Source: a virus
IMG/VR virus record: IMGVR_UViG_3300009087_000006
Span: 1 to 31,657 of that record
Length of the DNA stretch: 31,657 bases
Strand: one strand, 5' to 3'
This document shows, piece by piece, positions 3,378-31,379 of this stretch. Positions within the stretch are counted from its first letter, which is position 1, and every line of letters starts with the position of its first letter. The position numbers and the translations under genes were made by a program. The notes beneath the pieces were generated by a model. That model had not been told where the DNA came from and ran no database searches. It saw only the letters and a program-made list of their open reading frames with translations.

Positions 3378-3923
3378 ATGAAGACTTTTAATAAGAACAC
3401 AACGATTAAAGTTTCTGGTATTGTAATGCCTAACGGTAAAAACGCAGATGTTGATCTGGTAGATCCTCAAGGATACCGTGCTAATTTAAGCGGTAGACAG
3501 TTAGAAAAAGAGATTGCCACTATCTTGAAAAAGAAAGGTGCTTTTATTTCGTATTGGCGTTTGAAAGATAAAGTTAATGAGGAAAAGCACAATCACATTC
3601 TGTATAAGTGTGCCCCTTATATTTCTAATTGGGGGTGTAAGTGTCGTGGTGAGTTTGTTTTTAAGTCGAAGAAAATCGATGGTGCTGTTAGAATTGAAGC
3701 GAGAGCCCAGCATGTAGCTGGATCCGTAGATGAGAAGCTGAATTATCTTAAGGATAATTGTGGTGTATTTGAAGAGCCTAATGTTATCGTTGTATTAGAA
3801 GGAGACGGGTTTAGAAAGGAAGCTCGTCCTTGGTTTAAAAAGCAAATAAAGGCTATTTCTCATAAGAACGTCAGGGTGATGGATCTTAATGAGTTTGAAA
3901 CTTGGGTTAATGATAATATCTAA
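3378..3923 (+). CDS. Putative PD-(D/E)XK nuclease-like protein
   Basis: 181 aa. The central part reads KKIDGAVRIEARAQ followed by HVAGSVDEKLNYL, then a hydrophobic strand NVIVVLEGDGF and a C-terminal VRVMDLNEFETWV. This order (acidic residue D101, strand with E107, downstream Gln, a GS-x-DEKL helix, and a last beta strand before a helix) matches a set of restriction-endonuclease-like proteins of the PD-(D/E)XK superfamily as I remember them. The expected catalytic Lys is Arg109 or displaced, so activity is uncertain. An N-terminal helix with RQLEKEIATIL fits the first core helix. It follows the Dam-type methyltransferase and has AAGGAG before its ATG. Alternative: an inactive DNA-binding relative. 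Confidence 0.6.
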   Translation: MKTFNKNTTIKVSGIVMPNGKNADVDLVDPQGYRANLSGRQLEKEIATILKKKGAFISYWRLKDKVNEEKHNHILYKCAPYISNWGCKCRGEFVFKSKKIDGAVRIEARAQHVAGSVDEKLNYLKDNCGVFEEPNVIVVLEGDGFRKEARPWFKKQIKAISHKNVRVMDLNEFETWVNDNI

Positions 3924-4013
3924 TAATGATTAATTGTGTCTTCTCAAGAGGTTGATTATTCAGAGCCTATGGAACACACCCCATGTCATAAATGTGAGTA
4001 TAGAAACTATGAT

Positions 4014-4214
4014 CAGCCTTAGATCCGCAAACCACGAGCATCGCTCGTGGTTAGGCTAATTTTCCATACATAGTGACAATCACGGTATGGGATTTTGTAG
4101 TAAGGGTTTAAAAGCCTGGGCTCGGATGGAGCCTCGAACTAAAATCTGGAACTCACGCCGCAAGGCCGGAGATCTCCAGACTGGAATCATCGGGCGGCGC
4201 CTGATGAGCATCAA
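4014..4214 (+). mobile_element. Miniature IS200/IS605-type element carrying an omegaRNA-like end, no ORF
   Basis: The left end CAGCCTTAGA-CCGCAA matches the start of the full TnpB element at 8995. It is followed by a perfect 10-bp hairpin with a 3-nt loop (4030-4052). The right end 4116-4214 aligns over its whole length with 10120-10215 and finishes in the same GATGAGCATCAA. No transposase or TnpB frame remains, apart from a C-terminal relic readable as GLGWSLE...RLESSGGA. The segments between are unrelated to the big copy, so it derives from a diverged relative rather than from a recent internal deletion of the neighbour. Confidence 0.82.
4116..4214 (+). ncRNA. Putative omegaRNA scaffold in the miniature element
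   Basis: The predicted fold has three hairpins. Stem 1 is GGCTC/GAGCC. Stem 2 is TCTGGA/TCCAGA, enclosing the inner hairpin GCC-GCAA-GGC with a GNRA loop. Stem 3 is CATC/GATG, with inner GGC/GCC. Differences from the copy at 10120-10215 preserve pairing, as expected for a selected RNA. The guide would be the flanking sequence starting at 4215 (AGACTTATTGTAG). This is inferred from TnpB biology; no transcript is seen directly. Confidence 0.6.
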
Positions 4215-4294
4215 AGACTTATTGTAGACAAATGGGGAGGGTGTGCTTATTGGAAAGTAAGTATATTCTATAAAGACGATTTTTAAATCTTAGA

Positions 4295-4370
4295 ATTATA
4301 TAATAGTGTGGGCATTTTTGTTGGGGTGCGCTCTTTTATTAGTACACCTCAACAGCCAACACTATATAAT
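4295..4370. repeat. Large imperfect inverted repeat before tRNA-Gln
   Basis: The outer arms ATTATATA..GTGTGGGC (from 4295) and GCCAACACTATATAAT (4355-4370) are complementary except for a 3-nt bulge and one mismatch. An inner stem TTGGGGTG (4321-4328)/CACCTCAA (4345-4352) closes a 16-nt loop. There is no terminal T-tract, so it is not a normal terminator. The right arm reaches the first base of tRNA-Gln. It may be an RNA processing hairpin, a small structured RNA, or the relic of another element. Confidence 0.55.
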
Positions 4371-4450
4371 GGGGGGTTGTCTAATGGTAAGACACCAGCC
4401 TTTGAAGCTGGCTGCATATGCAATTACAGGTTCAAATCCTGTTCCCCCAG
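4370..4450 (+). tRNA. tRNA-Gln(UUG) with a long variable loop
   Basis: Acceptor TGGGGGG/TCCCCCA (one G-T), discriminator G as in Gln tRNAs, anticodon stem CCAGC/GCTGG with loop CTTTGAA (anticodon TTG), and T-arm ACAGG/CCTGT. The variable region is about 14 nt and contains the self-complementary TGCATATGCA, far longer than the usual 4-5 nt of a Gln tRNA. Confidence 0.9.
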
Positions 4451-8407: not shown

Positions 8408-9073
8408 ATGAAGCAGGTAGTGATTGATATTGATGGTATCTTGTGGAATATAGCACCATACTGGCACAAAGAGCTTATAAAAATAAACCCGGACTGCCCT
8501 TTTCCAGGGCTCACAACTTGGGAATTTTTTAAAAAGTATATGTCTTGGTCAGAAGCAGCCGCCGCTGTTACAAAAGTTCATATGAATCAAGACAAATATA
8601 AGCCTTTTAATAATGCAAATATACTTACAAGCAAGTTAAATGCGGCTGGGTATAAAACAATAATAGCTTCACACAGACACGAAGACTCTAGGGATGTTAC
8701 AGTTAGATGGCTTCGTAAAAACAATATTTATTTTGATAGTTTATATGTAGGAGCAGACAAGCATGTTTATTTAGAAGACAAAGACACTGTTTTGTTTATA
8801 GATGATTGTCCTGCTAGTCAAAAAATAGCAATAGATAAAGGTATTACTACAATGTCTATACGTTATCCATATAATGAGCATATGTATAATGTTATTTTTT
8901 ATGAAGATTTAGATCATTTAATTTCTGGTATAGATTTGTGGTTAGAACATCAGACTGGAAGGCATATAGGAAGGCGAGTTTCTTGCGCTTTGAACAGCCT
9001 TAGAACCGCAATCCCCGAACGGTGTTCGGGGTCAGGTTCTTGTAAAACACCACAAGTTAGGAATAGTTCTTGA
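8408..9073 (+). CDS. HAD-superfamily 5'(3')-deoxyribonucleotidase, C-terminus altered by an IS insertion
   Basis: 221 aa. HAD motif I is DIDGILW at residues 7-13 (nucleophile and acid/base aspartates), motif II is IIASHR (about 84-89), and motif IV is FIDDCP (about 137-142). The order and size fit the phage 5'(3')-deoxyribonucleotidase/HAD class, which removes the 5' phosphate from (deoxy)nucleotides. ATG with GGAG. From residue about 197 the coding sequence belongs to the left end of the TnpB element at 8995, so the last roughly 25 residues (with PERCSGSGSCKTPQ) are foreign. Joining the flanks gives CALNSTDQSGGVV and a stop inside tRNA-Leu. The catalytic core lies before the insertion, so activity may survive. 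Confidence 0.88.
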   Translation: MKQVVIDIDGILWNIAPYWHKELIKINPDCPFPGLTTWEFFKKYMSWSEAAAAVTKVHMNQDKYKPFNNANILTSKLNAAGYKTIIASHRHEDSRDVTVRWLRKNNIYFDSLYVGADKHVYLEDKDTVLFIDDCPASQKIAIDKGITTMSIRYPYNEHMYNVIFYEDLDHLISGIDLWLEHQTGRHIGRRVSCALNSLRTAIPERCSGSGSCKTPQVRNSS

Positions 9074-9098
9074 CTTTTACTTCTAAACAGGGTATAGT
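9070..9098 (+). promoter_or_regulatory. Promoter for tnpB, probably leaderless
   Basis: TTGACT (9070-9075), 17-bp spacer, TATAGT (9093-9098). The ATG of tnpB at 9105 falls 6-7 nt after the -10 box, where transcription would start, and no Shine-Dalgarno site fits in between. This suggests a leaderless mRNA. Confidence 0.65.
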
Positions 9099-9104
9099 GA
9101 TTAA

Positions 9105-10208
9105 ATGATAGTTAGGGAGCTCAAATTAAAATTGACCTCAAATCAGGTCTCCAAGTTAAACACTCAACTGTTTTATTTAACGGGGGTGTATAACTGGGCT
9201 GTGCGTACTATTGAGCTTAATGCTGTCAATAAAATCTACTACTCAAAGTTTGATTTCGTCAACTTGTTAGCTAACCACAGCAAAACTCTGGGAATTCCTT
9301 CTCATACATTGCAGGGAATTTTAGAGCAGGCTTTTATAGCCTGGCAGAGATGTTTCAAAAAGCTTGCTAAGAAGCCCAGGCTTAAGTCTGTTAGGAATAA
9401 GTTGAATTCAATACCTTTTCCTGATGCAATTTCTGGCACAAGGATCACGGATAAAACTATTGGAATTCCTGGGTTGGGTCAAGTTAGATTTTACAAACAA
9501 GATCTTCCCAAAGGTAAAGTTAAGTGTGCCCGAGCAGTACGAAGAGCCTCTGGTTGGTATCTTCAGCTTTCCATAGATGCTCAGCACCACTTCCCCATTA
9601 AGGAAACTTTTGATAAGGTAGGCATCGACACAGGGTTTAAGCATTTGGCTGTTCTATCCAACGGTACTAAGTTTGAAAACCAGCGCAATTTTATTAAAGG
9701 ACAGAAGCGCTTAGCTCAGGCACAACGTGGCAGCAATAAAAAGCTTGTCGCCCGGCTGCATGAGCGTACCAAGAACAGACGGAAAGATTATAATCACAAG
9801 ATTTCCAGGCAAATAGTTGAAGCTTTTCAAGAGATTTACATCACTAATGATAACTTGCAAAGTCAATCTAAAATGTTCGGTAAATCAGTACACGACGCAG
9901 GGATCAATCAACTAAAACAATTCATTTTATACAAGGGTGACACTCACGGTAGAAAATGTGTTTTAGTTGATTCAAAAAACACCACCATGACCTGTTCAAA
10001 CTGTGGAATTTTAAGTGGTCCCACAGGATTGATCGGGCTTGTTGTAAGGAACTGGGAATGCAGTGCTTGTGGGGCACAACATGATCGCGATATCAACGCG
10101 GCTAAAGTAATTCTCAATACTGGGCTCGGATGGAGCCTCGAAAACACTGAAACTCACGCTGTAAAGCCGGAGATTTTCAGACTGGAATCGTCGGGCGGCG
10201 CCCGATGA
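9105..10208 (+). CDS. tnpB: TnpB RNA-guided endonuclease (OrfB family)
   Basis: 367 aa, usual size for compact TnpB. It is the presumed RNA-guided DNA nuclease of IS200/IS605 elements, guided by an omegaRNA made from the right end. N-terminal OrfB helix-turn region at 1-100; RuvC-I GIDTGFKHLAV with Asp175; RuvC-II region YITNDNLQ with Asp249 where most TnpBs have Glu in an EDL motif; zinc finger CSNC...CSAC (Cys297, 300, 319, 322); RuvC-III DRDINAA with Asp329. The Asp at RuvC-II resembles a subgroup reading GDV/NDN followed by a K-SV-DAG helix, so loss of activity should not be assumed. The 3' end overlaps the omegaRNA. AT content and codon use are mildly different from its neighbours (more GC). 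Confidence 0.95.
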   Translation: MIVRELKLKLTSNQVSKLNTQLFYLTGVYNWAVRTIELNAVNKIYYSKFDFVNLLANHSKTLGIPSHTLQGILEQAFIAWQRCFKKLAKKPRLKSVRNKLNSIPFPDAISGTRITDKTIGIPGLGQVRFYKQDLPKGKVKCARAVRRASGWYLQLSIDAQHHFPIKETFDKVGIDTGFKHLAVLSNGTKFENQRNFIKGQKRLAQAQRGSNKKLVARLHERTKNRRKDYNHKISRQIVEAFQEIYITNDNLQSQSKMFGKSVHDAGINQLKQFILYKGDTHGRKCVLVDSKNTTMTCSNCGILSGPTGLIGLVVRNWECSACGAQHDRDINAAKVILNTGLGWSLENTETHAVKPEIFRLESSGGAR

Positions 10209-10215
10209 GCATCAA
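10120..10215 (+). ncRNA. Putative omegaRNA overlapping the 3' end of tnpB
   Basis: Stem 1 is GGCTC/GAGCC. Stem 2 is CTGAA/TTCAG, enclosing GCT-GTAA-AGC (GNRA loop). Stem 3 is CGTC/GATG, with inner GGGC/GCCC. The scaffold ends CATCAA, and the guide would be the flank CAGTACAGATCAATC. Its position at the right end overlapping tnpB is the known arrangement for TnpB omegaRNAs. Transcription is inferred. Confidence 0.65.
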
Positions 10216-10231
10216 CAGTACAGATCAATCA

Positions 10232-10314
10232 GGGGGAGTGGTGTAGTGGTAGCCACGACAGGCTTAGACCCTGTTGCTCGAAAGGGTGTGGGAGTTCGAA
10301 TCTCCCCTCCCCCA
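10232..10314 (+). tRNA. tRNA-Leu(UAG)
   Basis: Class II tRNA. Acceptor GGGGGAG/CTCCCCC, anticodon stem ACAGG/CCTGT with loop CTTAGAC (anticodon TAG, reading CUA), variable arm CTCGAAAGGG-like, T-arm GGGAG/CTCCC with loop TTCGAAT, discriminator A. It lies 16 nt after the TnpB element, which thus landed between a nucleotidase gene and this tRNA. Confidence 0.94.
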
Positions 10315-20951: not shown

Positions 20952-21469
20952 TGGCTTTAAGTCCAGGTCGTCCAAGAAACCCACCAACACCCCGCCAGTT
21001 ACTGAAGGATATAATCCCCGTAAATGATCTGTTTAAGGAAGATGAGGTAGTTTTATATACTTCCTTTATAGATTATTATCTTAATGATTTCAAAGATGAT
21101 GATTTGTCTGCAAGCGATCTAGATGATATTGCAAGTTTAGCTACCAACAAGGTAATGGAACTTCGTTTACTAAAAGACAGTAAAAATAGTACAGCCAAAC
21201 AAAGTACTGTATCCACATCTTTAGAGAAAATTCGTAAACACAATGAAGCTTTGAAAACAGGACTATCTTCAAGAAGAAAGGATAGGATAGATCCACATGA
21301 ATATAAAGGGTTTTCTATTGTGGATCTTGCAATTGCTTTTGATGAGGAGCGTAGGCATAAACTAGACAATAAGTCCGTGGATATTAGAAAGCAGGCAAGT
21401 GAAGCGGCTAAGCTTATAAGAAGCTATGGAAATAAGGACGATATAGACGGAGAGCAGGGTGTCGAGTAG
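20951..21469 (+). CDS. Putative terminase small subunit
   Basis: 172 aa, directly before TerL with an 11-nt overlap, ATG coupled to the previous stop (TAATG). The N-terminus is PRNPPTPRQLLKDIIPVNDL. The middle is helical and acidic, with SASDLDDIASLATNKVMELRLL. The C-terminal part (SIVDLAIAFDEERRHKLDNKSVDIRKQASEAAKLI) is a predicted helical domain similar in layout to small subunits that bind packaging DNA. I cannot match a Pfam with certainty. Either this or the preceding NUMOD3-like gene is the recogniser. Confidence 0.7.
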   Translation: MALSPGRPRNPPTPRQLLKDIIPVNDLFKEDEVVLYTSFIDYYLNDFKDDDLSASDLDDIASLATNKVMELRLLKDSKNSTAKQSTVSTSLEKIRKHNEALKTGLSSRRKDRIDPHEYKGFSIVDLAIAFDEERRHKLDNKSVDIRKQASEAAKLIRSYGNKDDIDGEQGVE

Positions 21470-24400
21470 ATTATCTAAAAATAAAGATCTTATTCTGAGT
21501 CAGGGAACTCAGATGATTGATTTTTATCGTAAGAACCCTGTAATAGCAGCCTATGATTTGTTAGGGGTTGATTTGGCTCCTATACAGGCAATGATTCTAG
21601 AGGACATGTGGTTTAAAAGTTACGTTGTTACGGTAACGTCCCGTGGTCTAGGAAAAACGTTTATAGCCGCTGTACTTGCAGTTCTTAGTACTCTTTTATA
21701 TCCTGGGTATAGGGTGGGTTTAATATCTTCGTCTTTTAGACAGTGTTTTATTAATAATCCTAATGGTATTCATACTTTCTTTACTTCAGAAGGGCTATAC
21801 TCTTCTACAGATTCTTTTTATGAATCTATTACATGTAATAGATCTCATGTTCAATCCTTAAAGCATACTAATGTTGTCTTGAATAAATGGAAAAACAATC
21901 CTCGTCTTTGTAGGACAATAAAGACTACCAAGGGACTAGAGTTAGGTGGTACAATAGATCATAGAATACTAACCCTATCTGCTGGTTTTTCGTTGACTTA
22001 TAAGGAGCTAAAAGACATAGACGAGGAAACCACTATAGTCATAAGAAAAGGATTTAACTTTTTTGGTAATAATATAAGTTTACCTCAATTAGAGTATACT
22101 GACCATTGGGCAACCAAACCTTGTTGCATACCAAAAACCTTAACACCAGATTTATCTTATTTATTAGGACTTATTGTAGGGGATGGGCATATTACAACCA
22201 AATCGTCATATCAAGTAGGGTTTACAAGCTCTGACCCAGAGTTGGTAGATAGGTTTATACATTTAATGTTTAGTGAGTTTGGTTTAAGTAAACATTATAT
22301 ACAAATAAAGACAGGTAACTGTGTTACTATTACTTATACATCTAAAACAGTGTGTGTTTTTTTATTAGGAGTAGGTCTTACAGACACAACCGCCTTAGAT
22401 AAGAAGTTTCCTTTTATTATAAATAGAGCTCCAAAGGACTGTATTTTATCTTTTATATCTGCTTTGTTAGACACAGACGGATGCTGTTATACACAAAGCA
22501 AATGTAATACCTGTACTGTTGATCTTGCCACATCGTCTATTAGACTTGCAAAAGAATATCAAGCTCATTTGTTAAATTTGGGTATTTTAGCTGGTTTGTG
22601 TGTGTCAAAAAAAGCAGAACGTAGACAACTAGTCACCAGAACTAATGGACTTTCAGACTGCGCGGAAGCGTATAAAGTTAGAATTACTGGAATTAAAGAT
22701 TTAATATTATTTAGCAAGGTAATTGGCTTTAAATTACATAGGAAACAAAATAAGTTGAATAATTATCTACTGGAGAATAAACCATACTCTACTTCGGATA
22801 AAATACCTTATTCAGAAAAATACTGTCTTACTTTAATATCAGAATTAAGACCTTTATTAAAACGTGGAACTCCTGATTTAAAGTTTATAGGTATGCTTAA
22901 AAATAATACAACTAAAACTAAAACAGGAGTAACTAGATGGCGATTAGAGAAGCTTATACATATAGCGGATAAGTATAATGTTTCGACTGAGTCCTACTGT
23001 AGATTGAAAGATATTATTTCTAAAGATCTTGCTTTTGTTAAGCCCGTATCTTTTATTACTTCTATGGAGGAGACAATAGACATAGAGGTGGCATCTGAAC
23101 ATTGTTATTGGGCTTCCGGTTTCATTCACCACAACTCTAAACTTATTTTTGCAGAAGTAGAAAAGCTTTACGGGCAATCCAGTATTTTACAAGAAGCCTG
23201 TGAGAAGAGACCAATTCGAGGGGCTGACCTTTGTTATTTACAATTCAAAGGTGCCAAAGGACAGCATGGATCTTATATAGAAGCCCTTCCTATAGGAAAT
23301 GACGGAGCTAAGATTAGAGGTTCTCGTTTTTACTTATTAATTATGGATGAGTTTGCTCAGATTCCTAAAAAAATTATAGATAACGTATTAACTCCTATGG
23401 CAGTGACCAAACTAAATCCAATGAAGCGGGTTAGGGATTTAGAAGTAAAAAAGAGACTTATAGCGCAGGGATTGGCAGTAGAATCAGACTTTGAAGAGGA
23501 AACTCTTAACAAGTTGGTGGCGGTTTCTTCCGGGTACTACAAATTCAATCATATGTATAGACGTATGCGTGAATATTGGAAGTTGATGGATCTTGGATCT
23601 GAACACCACGTCGTTCATCAAGTACCATATACCGCTCTCCCTGATGGATTTTTAGATAAGGAAAATATAGATAATGCCAGAAGAACTATGTCTGATTATG
23701 AGTTCAGAATGGAATACATGGCAGATATGGTTAGTGATTCAGATGGATTTTTTAAAGCATCTTTACTTTTAGGTTGTTCTGAGGGTAGTGGTTTTTATGT
23801 AGAGGATATGGGGGTATCTGGGGCAAGTTATATAATAGGAGTAGATCCAAACCAGGGGGGTAGAGCTAAATGTGGATTTGTCGTAATCAAGCTGGGAACC
23901 GTATGTAAAGTAGTGCAGGTATTTGAGTTTGAAGGGCATAAAACTCAAGACATTGTGAAAAGAGTACAGAGGCTGTGTAAGGAGTTTAATGTCTCTAGGA
24001 TTTTTATGGATAGAGGTGGCGGAGGAAAAGCTATAAGTGATTTACTTGCAGAGGGATATGGAGGGGAAGAGCCTATTATTGATATTTTGGAAAAATCCTA
24101 TGAAAAGCTGCAAGGTAGAAGAATACTAGAAGCCGTTCCTTCTAACCCAGGGTGGGTGGCAGAGGCTAACTTTGCTACACTCGCTTTGTTGGAAGCTAAA
24201 GGTATTTTATTTCCAGAGCCTCCTCTAGAGGCAATAAAAGAAGAGACAGAAGATGCTTATAATAGTGTAGAGCTTTTGAAAAAGCAATGTTTAAATATTG
24301 TGATCACAGAGACTTCTTCCGGGGTGTTACATTTTGATACTCCTAAAAAAGGACAAAACAAAGATCTATATTCAGCATTTGTTCTAGCTTGTTGGGGGGC

Positions 24401-24563
24401 AAAGAAAGTACTAAAACCGGTGGTCGAAGAAGACTTTCAAATATTACACGGAAGTTCCGGATTAATTAGAATGAAGGAAGGTGCTTGGATGCCTGTGTCT
24501 GGGAAATCTGTTGTTGCTAATGCAGACTTACAAGCAGCCGTCCTTAAGAGAAAAATAAACTAA
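21459..24563 (+). CDS. Terminase large subunit, interrupted by an intein
   Basis: 1034-aa precursor, 570 aa after splicing, normal for a TerL. Extein: Walker A TSRGLGKT (60-67), a motor motif in LISSSFRQ|SKLIF, Walker B LLIMDEFAQ, and nuclease acidic residues in GVDPNQGG, FMDRGGGG and GQNKDLYSAF. It packages DNA into the prohead and cuts it to length. The GTG start overlaps the upstream gene by 11 nt. The intein occupies residues 96-559. The intein sits between Walker A and Walker B, so the precursor cannot be an active motor until it is spliced. Confidence 0.97.
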   Translation: MSSRLSKNKDLILSQGTQMIDFYRKNPVIAAYDLLGVDLAPIQAMILEDMWFKSYVVTVTSRGLGKTFIAAVLAVLSTLLYPGYRVGLISSSFRQCFINNPNGIHTFFTSEGLYSSTDSFYESITCNRSHVQSLKHTNVVLNKWKNNPRLCRTIKTTKGLELGGTIDHRILTLSAGFSLTYKELKDIDEETTIVIRKGFNFFGNNISLPQLEYTDHWATKPCCIPKTLTPDLSYLLGLIVGDGHITTKSSYQVGFTSSDPELVDRFIHLMFSEFGLSKHYIQIKTGNCVTITYTSKTVCVFLLGVGLTDTTALDKKFPFIINRAPKDCILSFISALLDTDGCCYTQSKCNTCTVDLATSSIRLAKEYQAHLLNLGILAGLCVSKKAERRQLVTRTNGLSDCAEAYKVRITGIKDLILFSKVIGFKLHRKQNKLNNYLLENKPYSTSDKIPYSEKYCLTLISELRPLLKRGTPDLKFIGMLKNNTTKTKTGVTRWRLEKLIHIADKYNVSTESYCRLKDIISKDLAFVKPVSFITSMEETIDIEVASEHCYWASGFIHHNSKLIFAEVEKLYGQSSILQEACEKRPIRGADLCYLQFKGAKGQHGSYIEALPIGNDGAKIRGSRFYLLIMDEFAQIPKKIIDNVLTPMAVTKLNPMKRVRDLEVKKRLIAQGLAVESDFEEETLNKLVAVSSGYYKFNHMYRRMREYWKLMDLGSEHHVVHQVPYTALPDGFLDKENIDNARRTMSDYEFRMEYMADMVSDSDGFFKASLLLGCSEGSGFYVEDMGVSGASYIIGVDPNQGGRAKCGFVVIKLGTVCKVVQVFEFEGHKTQDIVKRVQRLCKEFNVSRIFMDRGGGGKAISDLLAEGYGGEEPIIDILEKSYEKLQGRRILEAVPSNPGWVAEANFATLALLEAKGILFPEPPLEAIKEETEDAYNSVELLKKQCLNIVITETSSGVLHFDTPKKGQNKDLYSAFVLACWGAKKVLKPVVEEDFQILHGSSGLIRMKEGAWMPVSGKSVVANADLQAAVLKRKIN
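21744..23135 (+). mobile_element. Intein with LAGLIDADG (DOD) endonuclease inside terminase
   Basis: 464 aa. The first residue is Cys96, block B contains TIDHRIL, and the splice end is SGFIHHN with penultimate His558 and Asn559, followed by Ser as the +1 extein residue. DOD endonuclease motifs are LLGLIVGDG (233-241) and SALLDTDGC. The flanking extein SSSFRQ/SKLIF is continuous. Expected splicing chemistry: Cys1, Asn-final, Ser+1, fully compatible. The gap of about 65 residues before block B is slightly long for an intein N-terminus. Confidence 0.95.
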
Positions 24564-30295: not shown

Positions 30296-31379
30296 ATCTA
30301 ATTTGGCGCCCTACATAGTAATATGTAGGTGATAAAAGGACTATATGCTGGAAACTCCCGCTAAACCTTAAGTACCACAGTGTAAAAATCTTAAGGATAG
30401 GGACAATCAGCAGGAAAGATATATTATAAATATGATTAAAGATAATAAGGATTTGTTGTATAAACTGTATGTAGAAGAAGGTAAGTCTTTAGCTACTATA
30501 GCAAGTGAATATAGTGCTTCTGTGAGTTCTGTAAGAGCTTGGTTGAAAAAAGTAGGTATTACTGTAAGACCTTCAACTCAGGATATTTATAAAGAGCTTA
30601 AAATAACAGACTTTAGTGCGTTGCAAAAAAACCTAATTGTGGGTTCTTTGCTGGGTGATGGTTCTCTTACTAAAAGTAGAGACTGCATCAGTGCCAGGTT
30701 TGTAGAAAGACACAGTGTTGACCAATTAGACTACTTACAGTGGAAGAACTCTATTCTAAAACCTTTTGTAACATCAAAACTAGTAAAAACCCCGGGAGGG
30801 GAACACATTATATCAGGTGTGCCTTGTATTGTAAAGGATAGTTATATGCTTTCTACTATAACACATCCGTACCTTACTGGTTTACATAAGATATGGTATA
30901 AAGATGGTAAGAAAGTTATACCAGGTAATTTATATAATACAATGAATGTTTTATCTTATACAGTGTGGTTCTGCGATGATGGGTGTTTTATACATAACAA
31001 AAGGCTTGGAATTTATAGGATAGATATACACAGCGAAGCATTTAGTTATAAAGAGAATGTTTTTTTGTGTAGAGATTTGTTATCCAAGTTTTTTGGTGTA
31101 GGTTTTAGAGTGAACAACAGAACTTATGTCTCAGGAAAAGCATACTACATATGTATTAGTGGTGAGGAAAATATCAGACATATAGTGTCGATATTGAAAC
31201 CAGTAATTCCTGATTCAATGATGTATAAATTTAAAGATTATTTATAATATATATCCTCAACGACTACATGTTCTTCTACCAGATTGGTAGATGATATAGT
31301 CTGACCTGCGCGGAAACGTGCAGAGGGTGGGTCGAAGAACCTGCCCCGCCTCGAAAGAGGTCATTAAAGTAACAGAGTG
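30296..31379 (+). other. Group I intron in the major capsid gene
   Basis: Core elements visible: P (TGCTGGAAACTCCC, 30347-30360), Q (AATCAGCAGGAAAG, 30405-30418), R (TCAACGACTA, 31257-31266), and S (GATATAGTC, 31293-31301). P1 can form between exon CGCT and intron GGCG with a U-G pair at the 5' splice site. The LAGLIDADG ORF lies between Q and R. End positions are uncertain by a few bases: the alternative 30300-31377 also keeps the frame (it would insert Ile-Leu). The element is about 1.08 kb. Confidence 0.9.
30432..31247 (+). CDS. LAGLIDADG homing endonuclease in the group I intron
   Basis: 271 aa. An N-terminal helix-turn-helix-like segment (GKSLATIASEYSASVSSVRAW) is followed by LAGLIDADG motif 1 LIVGSLLGDGSLTK and motif 2 VWFCDDGCF. 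The candidate metal-binding acids of both motifs are present (Asp in GDG, Asp-Asp in CDDG), so it is probably active and makes a double-strand break in intron-less capsid genes to spread the intron. Start ATG 30432 lies about 12 nt after the Q element. Confidence 0.93.
   Translation: MIKDNKDLLYKLYVEEGKSLATIASEYSASVSSVRAWLKKVGITVRPSTQDIYKELKITDFSALQKNLIVGSLLGDGSLTKSRDCISARFVERHSVDQLDYLQWKNSILKPFVTSKLVKTPGGEHIISGVPCIVKDSYMLSTITHPYLTGLHKIWYKDGKKVIPGNLYNTMNVLSYTVWFCDDGCFIHNKRLGIYRIDIHSEAFSYKENVFLCRDLLSKFFGVGFRVNNRTYVSGKAYYICISGEENIRHIVSILKPVIPDSMMYKFKDYL

Follow-up and report, generated by a model that had tools for sequence, protein, structure and literature searches.

In a phage family of IS200/IS605-type elements, the right ends have an RNA-like fold that appears, with good support from alignments, to be under selection across the family. 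The two sites at which we recognized it belong to a tnpB-less miniature and a full copy with tnpB in the same window (the whole stretch analysed, 31,657 nucleotides of an IMG/VR virus record with 19 tRNA genes; features below are on the + strand). Read as RNA, each right end would be an omegaRNA (reRNA) scaffold made of three stems (stem 2 variable, stem 3 subterminal) and a terminal TCAA, after which a guide would be read from the flanking DNA. Compensatory change would have preserved the pairing of stems 1 and 2 in bases that also encode the tail of TnpB. The miniature would come from a sister tnpB element and not from the resident copy, having lost tnpB and kept both ends and the whole scaffold. 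Most likely it was moved in trans by a Y1 TnpA like that of sister elements with the same ends, and it is perhaps transcribed with its neighbors, which would provide a second guide for the resident TnpB, one directed at the allele without the insertion (junction 4013/4215). We give this reading as a whole a probability of about 0.75.

The miniature (4014-4214) is 201 bases long, is flanked on the left by ATGAT and, like PATE/MITE elements, has both ends and no transposase gene; it also lacks TnpB. Its left end (4014-4058) starts as other left ends do and contains a hairpin at 4032-4050 (z -5.7). The right end comprises stem 1 (4118-4134; 4118-4123 paired with 4129-4134), aligned in a set of 31 sequences; stem 2, a middle helix and an inner GCAA hairpin (4145-4180), drawn from alignment and folding; stem 3, the subterminal hairpin (4187-4207), drawn from folding and the type A set described below; and a tail, ATG AGC ATC AA (4204-4214), that holds both a start codon and the TCAA terminus. 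By analogy with the ISDra2 reRNA, as presented in the available text of PMC8612924, the putative guide would be the flanking DNA at 4215-4234. The insertion splits a 51-codon open frame (3930-4286, in the parts 3930-4013 and 4215-4286) that stays open when the flanks are joined. The intact allele of this target was not found in phages (four matches, E 9-10) or in viral_contigs, a distant blastn search of the phage collection found no miniature-like sequence, and no promoter-like site was found on the + strand of 3900-4400. To judge from its sequence, the miniature is a TnpA-less IS200/IS605-type element. An imperfect hairpin at 4062-4091, in mid-miniature, has no counterpart that we could see in the full element, and a PD-(D/E)XK nuclease-like protein (PF20472) is encoded just upstream, at 3378-3923.

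Within the window, the only second copy of the miniature's right end is at 10122-10215, where the full element has its right end and scaffold, with homology beginning at the foot of stem 1. Over 97 aligned columns, 4118-4214 and 10122-10215 differ by 10 substitutions and a 3-base insertion, which sits in the miniature and keeps the frame. The original prediction had placed two doubly changed pairs and one wobble change here and had described stem 1 and the terminal GATGAGCATCAA as unchanged, and the alignment bears this out. Stem 2 pairs A-T in the full copy where the miniature has G-C (4149 with 4176), the inner hairpin pairs T-A where the miniature has C-G (4159 with 4164; loop GTAA versus GCAA), stem 3 contains a G-T/A-T change (4189 with 4205), and stem 1 and the terminus are identical. 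A second wobble change in stem 3, G-C/G-T (4192 with 4202), had been missed, and at its foot stem 2 of the miniature is one pair longer (T-A, 4145 with 4180). In all, both bases of two pairs have changed, two single changes preserve pairing through G-U, one pair is gained and three substitutions are unpaired; 29 of the 30 pairs in the miniature's fold are standard in the full copy as well, and none is broken. When these substitutions were placed at random, 41 of 200,000 trials (about 2 in 10,000) left every pair intact and compensated two or more. On both strands the right-end sequence folds better than dinucleotide shuffles (z -3.3 and -2.9). The full-copy counterpart of the scaffold is coding, and the miniature's tail is still open in the tnpB frame. 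Because that tail differs from the resident copy in sequence, in its in-frame 3-base insertion and in a stop one codon earlier, we infer that the miniature descends from a sister tnpB element.

Paired changes had also been taken to imply selection on RNA structure in a copy that no longer codes for anything. The direction of change was assumed in that argument, and we polarized the changes with three outgroups (L003, L005 and L035). All three have C-G at the inner hairpin, as the miniature does, so at this double change the derived state is that of the full coding copy. At the stem-2 double change the outgroups carry A, C and G, and no date can be assigned. Clear miniature-only changes are column 27, loop column 44 and the 3-base insertion, which is absent from all outgroups; all are unpaired. 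Three or four random changes would break no pair with a chance of 0.13 to 0.05, and the absence of broken pairs among the miniature's own changes is too weak to prove constraint. The coding relatives (the window's full copy, L003, L005 and L035) carry the same kind of double changes. Because at least one paired change arose in a protein-coding copy, these changes do not show miniature-specific selection, and the argument for selection on the miniature itself fails on polarity. The structural half of the claim stands for the family: as far as the alignments show, covariation reflects selection on the element family and not specifically on the miniature.

Relatives were gathered by searches in IMG/VR and sorted into types A to D, letters coined in this analysis. 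Five distinct right ends are of type A (the window's full copy, the miniature, L003, L005 and L035). Type B comprises three right ends without any stem 2 (L018, L030 and L025), and stem 2 is therefore dispensable in that lineage; type D is a larger set with a single stem 2; and type C has the same last ~31 bases attached to a different TnpB lineage with a canonical LEDL motif. Across the type A set 93.3% of cells are paired, and 7 of 27 pairs have changes on both sides. None of 500 shuffles reached its covariation score, and all slid versions scored far lower. One stem-2 pair is broken in L005, and the pair at columns 30/68 is absent in four of the five ends.

Stem 1 is paired in every cell (155/155) of 31 ends. 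Under a tree-based null its five pairs rank first to fifth among 153 column pairs, with E of 0.003 or less for three and of 0.28 and 0.35 for the other two. This null came from our own script, written in the manner of R-scape and distinct from it, which keeps the changes per column on the TnpB tree. The 31 ends omit duplicates and near-duplicates (L073, L076, L081 and L096), a fragment (L082), a deletion copy (L007/L090) and the distant L086-L093 and L099-L173. The tree test used the 29 of them for which a TnpB protein was available, thus without the miniature and L025, and took the window row with its full 367 amino acids. The stem-1 register was aligned by eye and is consistent with the frame in which the G-x-G codons are read.

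Stem 2 folded at z -2 or lower in 14 of 25 regions and no better than z -1.7 in the other 11; its predicted fold has a GNRA loop in 8 of the 25 and a UUCG loop in L035. Six of the 31 rows fell outside this folding, namely the three type B ends, L066 and L067, which had been cut short by the motif search, and the motif-less L085. Amino acids encoded by the scaffold vary with the stem (GLGxS, GVGxT, GAGxA, ALGxR), and differences among the coding copies have no clear third-position excess, which together are expected if RNA pairing outweighs the protein tail. The scaffold lies at the 3' end of tnpB and its 3' hairpin finishes at the element boundary, as in an omegaRNA or reRNA; an Rfam search of the window found no omegaRNA-like family.

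Searches with right-end patterns, judged from the matched sequences, returned 8 real ends and 26 chance matches among 34, and 7 real and 5 chance among 12; a stricter pattern gave 0 matches. The type A pattern occurs in 110 stretches of viral_contigs, and among the 80 listed only the known ends were real by context, that is, by GGAATC or stem 1 nearby. In 25 records, the window and 24 related virus records, the right-end pattern occurred in at most two copies per record.

The full element (8995-10215; 1221 bases, both ends found) carries tnpB and no tnpA. A promoter-like site, TTGACT-17-TATAGT (9070-9098), precedes tnpB (9105-10208), whose coding sequence runs through the scaffold, and the putative guide would be 10216-10235. 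An HAD-like ORF (8408-9073) has its 3' end split by the element, and its joined flanks are open to a stop nine codons on. Across the family, 12 of 13 left ends are preceded by WTGAW (8 ATGAA, 3 TTGAA and 1 ATGAT; the exception is L006), and left ends begin with C (G in L007). These 13 omit eight hairpin-less matches judged to be chance (L008, L009, L011, L013, L016, L048, L144 and L179), and the left flank of L019 was scored as ATGAA after a one-base shift of the match. The family thus has the subterminal hairpins at both ends and the fixed left target of IS200/IS605 elements. In ISHp608 the target and guide motifs are GAAT and TCAA.

Y1 TnpA (PF01797) was not found in the window record, which may be a fragment. 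Four sister elements with both ends contain a PF01797 TnpA, divergent from TnpB in L281, L283 and L284 and from an HNH-like ORF in L285. With TnpA missing from the record but encoded by sisters that share their ends, the copies in the window count as non-autonomous derivatives and not as complete members. The common ends suggest that the miniature was probably moved by the TnpA those sisters encode. An element with the same ends in L285/L026 carries TnpA and the HNH-like ORF in place of TnpB; this ORF has no Pfam match in L285, the HNH label having been given from its residues. Right ends without an intact tnpB either start at the first scaffold hairpin (the miniature, L014, L023 and L020) or consist of 46-75 bases only (L022, L027 and L026), and a left end was also found only for the miniature, L014 and L026. 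Because L022 and L027 retain just 46-48 bases of the right end, a remnant can persist without the scaffold. The literature searched, which left most subscription journals outside its coverage, held no paper on these elements.

The window's TnpB has Cas12f1-like/OrfB domains, with PF07282 and PF01385 above cut-off and NF040570 (guided_TnpB) at 210 bits against a cut-off of 100. It lacks a complete canonical RuvC D-E-D triad: D175 and the RuvC-III Asp are present, the Glu is replaced by T, and D249 is invariant. Of 30 aligned TnpB rows, a few of them duplicates (L072/L073 and L075/L076, for example), the subfamily accounts for 27 (window 9105-10208, L035 and L060-L085); the other three are distant rows with IEDL. 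At the canonical RuvC-II Glu position all 27 subfamily rows have T, S, N or L, and the Asp two residues further on (D249) is invariant in 27 of 27, and in 17 of 17 in a second count. In 25 of 27 rows both the RuvC-I and the RuvC-III acid are present; L080/L081 have also lost the RuvC-I Asp. By identity (57-60%), 5 of 80 genome_contigs loci belong to the subfamily (L094-L098; a 29-residue match, L173, was left aside), so that in the databases searched the subfamily is mostly viral.

Several right ends supply the next gene with a start codon. The frame from the terminal ATG is open for 80 or more codons in 8 of 17 distinct right ends (L003, L005, L018, L019, L020, L022, L027 and L030), with two cut by the locus end, and the other two frames after the right end are so in 0 of 34. 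For L003 the downstream protein matches the DNA polymerase III beta N-terminal domain from residue 4; for L030 the match is to RF-1 and begins at residue 9. The phase left by ATGAA in front of the element is also that of ATGAGCATCAA at the element end, and a gene entered at its start codon would thus restart in frame, two codons longer. In the window this frame runs for just 7 codons after the miniature and 13 after the full copy, and no gene is supplied.

The closest competitor to the reading we prefer, a little short of even odds, is that the pairing is inherited: the miniature would have arisen recently by deletion from a coding element, with its pairs compensated earlier through selection acting on the active element, and would now be drifting. 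The inner-hairpin change derived in a coding copy, the tail still open in the tnpB frame and the few, unpaired miniature-only changes all fit this account, which is compatible with our explanation except for any present function of the miniature. Against it, in weak numbers, no pair of the miniature is broken and one is gained, while its last codon was lost and an insertion gained; because the tail changed in these ways while no pair broke, coding looks released and the fold does not. That the ends are kept purely as DNA hairpins, single-stranded recognition sites for TnpA, is quite improbable: most copies do retain the left-end hairpin and stem 3, and TnpA occurs in sister elements, but the 46-48 bases kept by L022 and L027 do not include stems 1 and 2, and the strongest covariation is that of stem 1. 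That two diverged copies resemble each other by chance had some footing when the comparison rested on two sequences only; the family covariation under the tree-based null rules it out, the type A covariation and random placement agree, and its probability is negligible.

A further alternative concerns the protein. TnpB might be nuclease-dead, with the RNAs guiding repression as in TldR proteins, and the loss of the RuvC-II Glu throughout the subfamily and of the RuvC-I Asp in L080/L081 is in its favor. The acids retained at RuvC-I and RuvC-III and the invariant D249 are, however, as expected for a relocated active site, and the elements look mobile; we consider nuclease death unlikely. In our preferred explanation the miniature might serve the resident TnpB as a solo guide RNA, a plausible role. 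More doubtful is an extended version, in which the miniature would be a guide-RNA gene on its own: omegaRNAs from tnpB-less miniatures would serve in trans a phage TnpB with a non-canonical (D-D-D) RuvC site, each miniature insertion would program cutting of its own uninterrupted allele in rival phages, and right ends with ATG would allow insertion at gene starts while leaving the genes unsilenced.

In the available text on ISDra2 (PMC8612924, PMC10278001), IS200/IS605 elements resemble ours in a Y1 TnpA with a divergent TnpB (here in sister elements), in hairpins at both ends with a subterminal 3' hairpin, and in an RNA scaffold overlapping the tnpB 3' end; the WTGAW left flank is close to the TAM described there, TTGAT. 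Ours differ in the non-canonical RuvC-II, in window copies without TnpA, and in a right end that gives ATG to a downstream gene in about half of copies. Palindrome-associated transposable elements (PATE), thought to be moved in trans according to the accessible part of PMC7290912, are likewise short, ends-only derivatives of about 200-300 bases. Unlike them, the miniature retains the whole omegaRNA-like scaffold in its right end and might serve as a guide on its own. TldR (PMC13418256) and relocated-Glu TnpB (PMC10711439), as far as the available portions of those papers describe them, also lack the canonical RuvC-II Glu, and a broken tldR copy is proposed in the former as a trans source of guide RNAs. 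In our subfamily the alternative Glu six residues before CxxC (PMC10711439) is absent, and the invariant Asp lies two residues beyond the canonical position instead. Atypical RuvC-II clades need not be inactive, according to the portion available of PMC10278001.

These elements would offer a natural test of TnpB working with guide RNAs from tnpB-less copies, and a case of RNA pairing shaping a protein tail. The TnpB subfamily, with its possibly relocated RuvC-II acid, its start-codon ends and its concentration in viral contigs, may hold a catalytic variant. Elsewhere in the window, 21459-24563 encodes a terminase-like protein with intein/LAGLIDADG matches, and at 30432-31323 a LAGLIDADG ORF overlaps, and is then followed by, a group I intron-like match that scores 36.4 against a gathering threshold of 50 bits.
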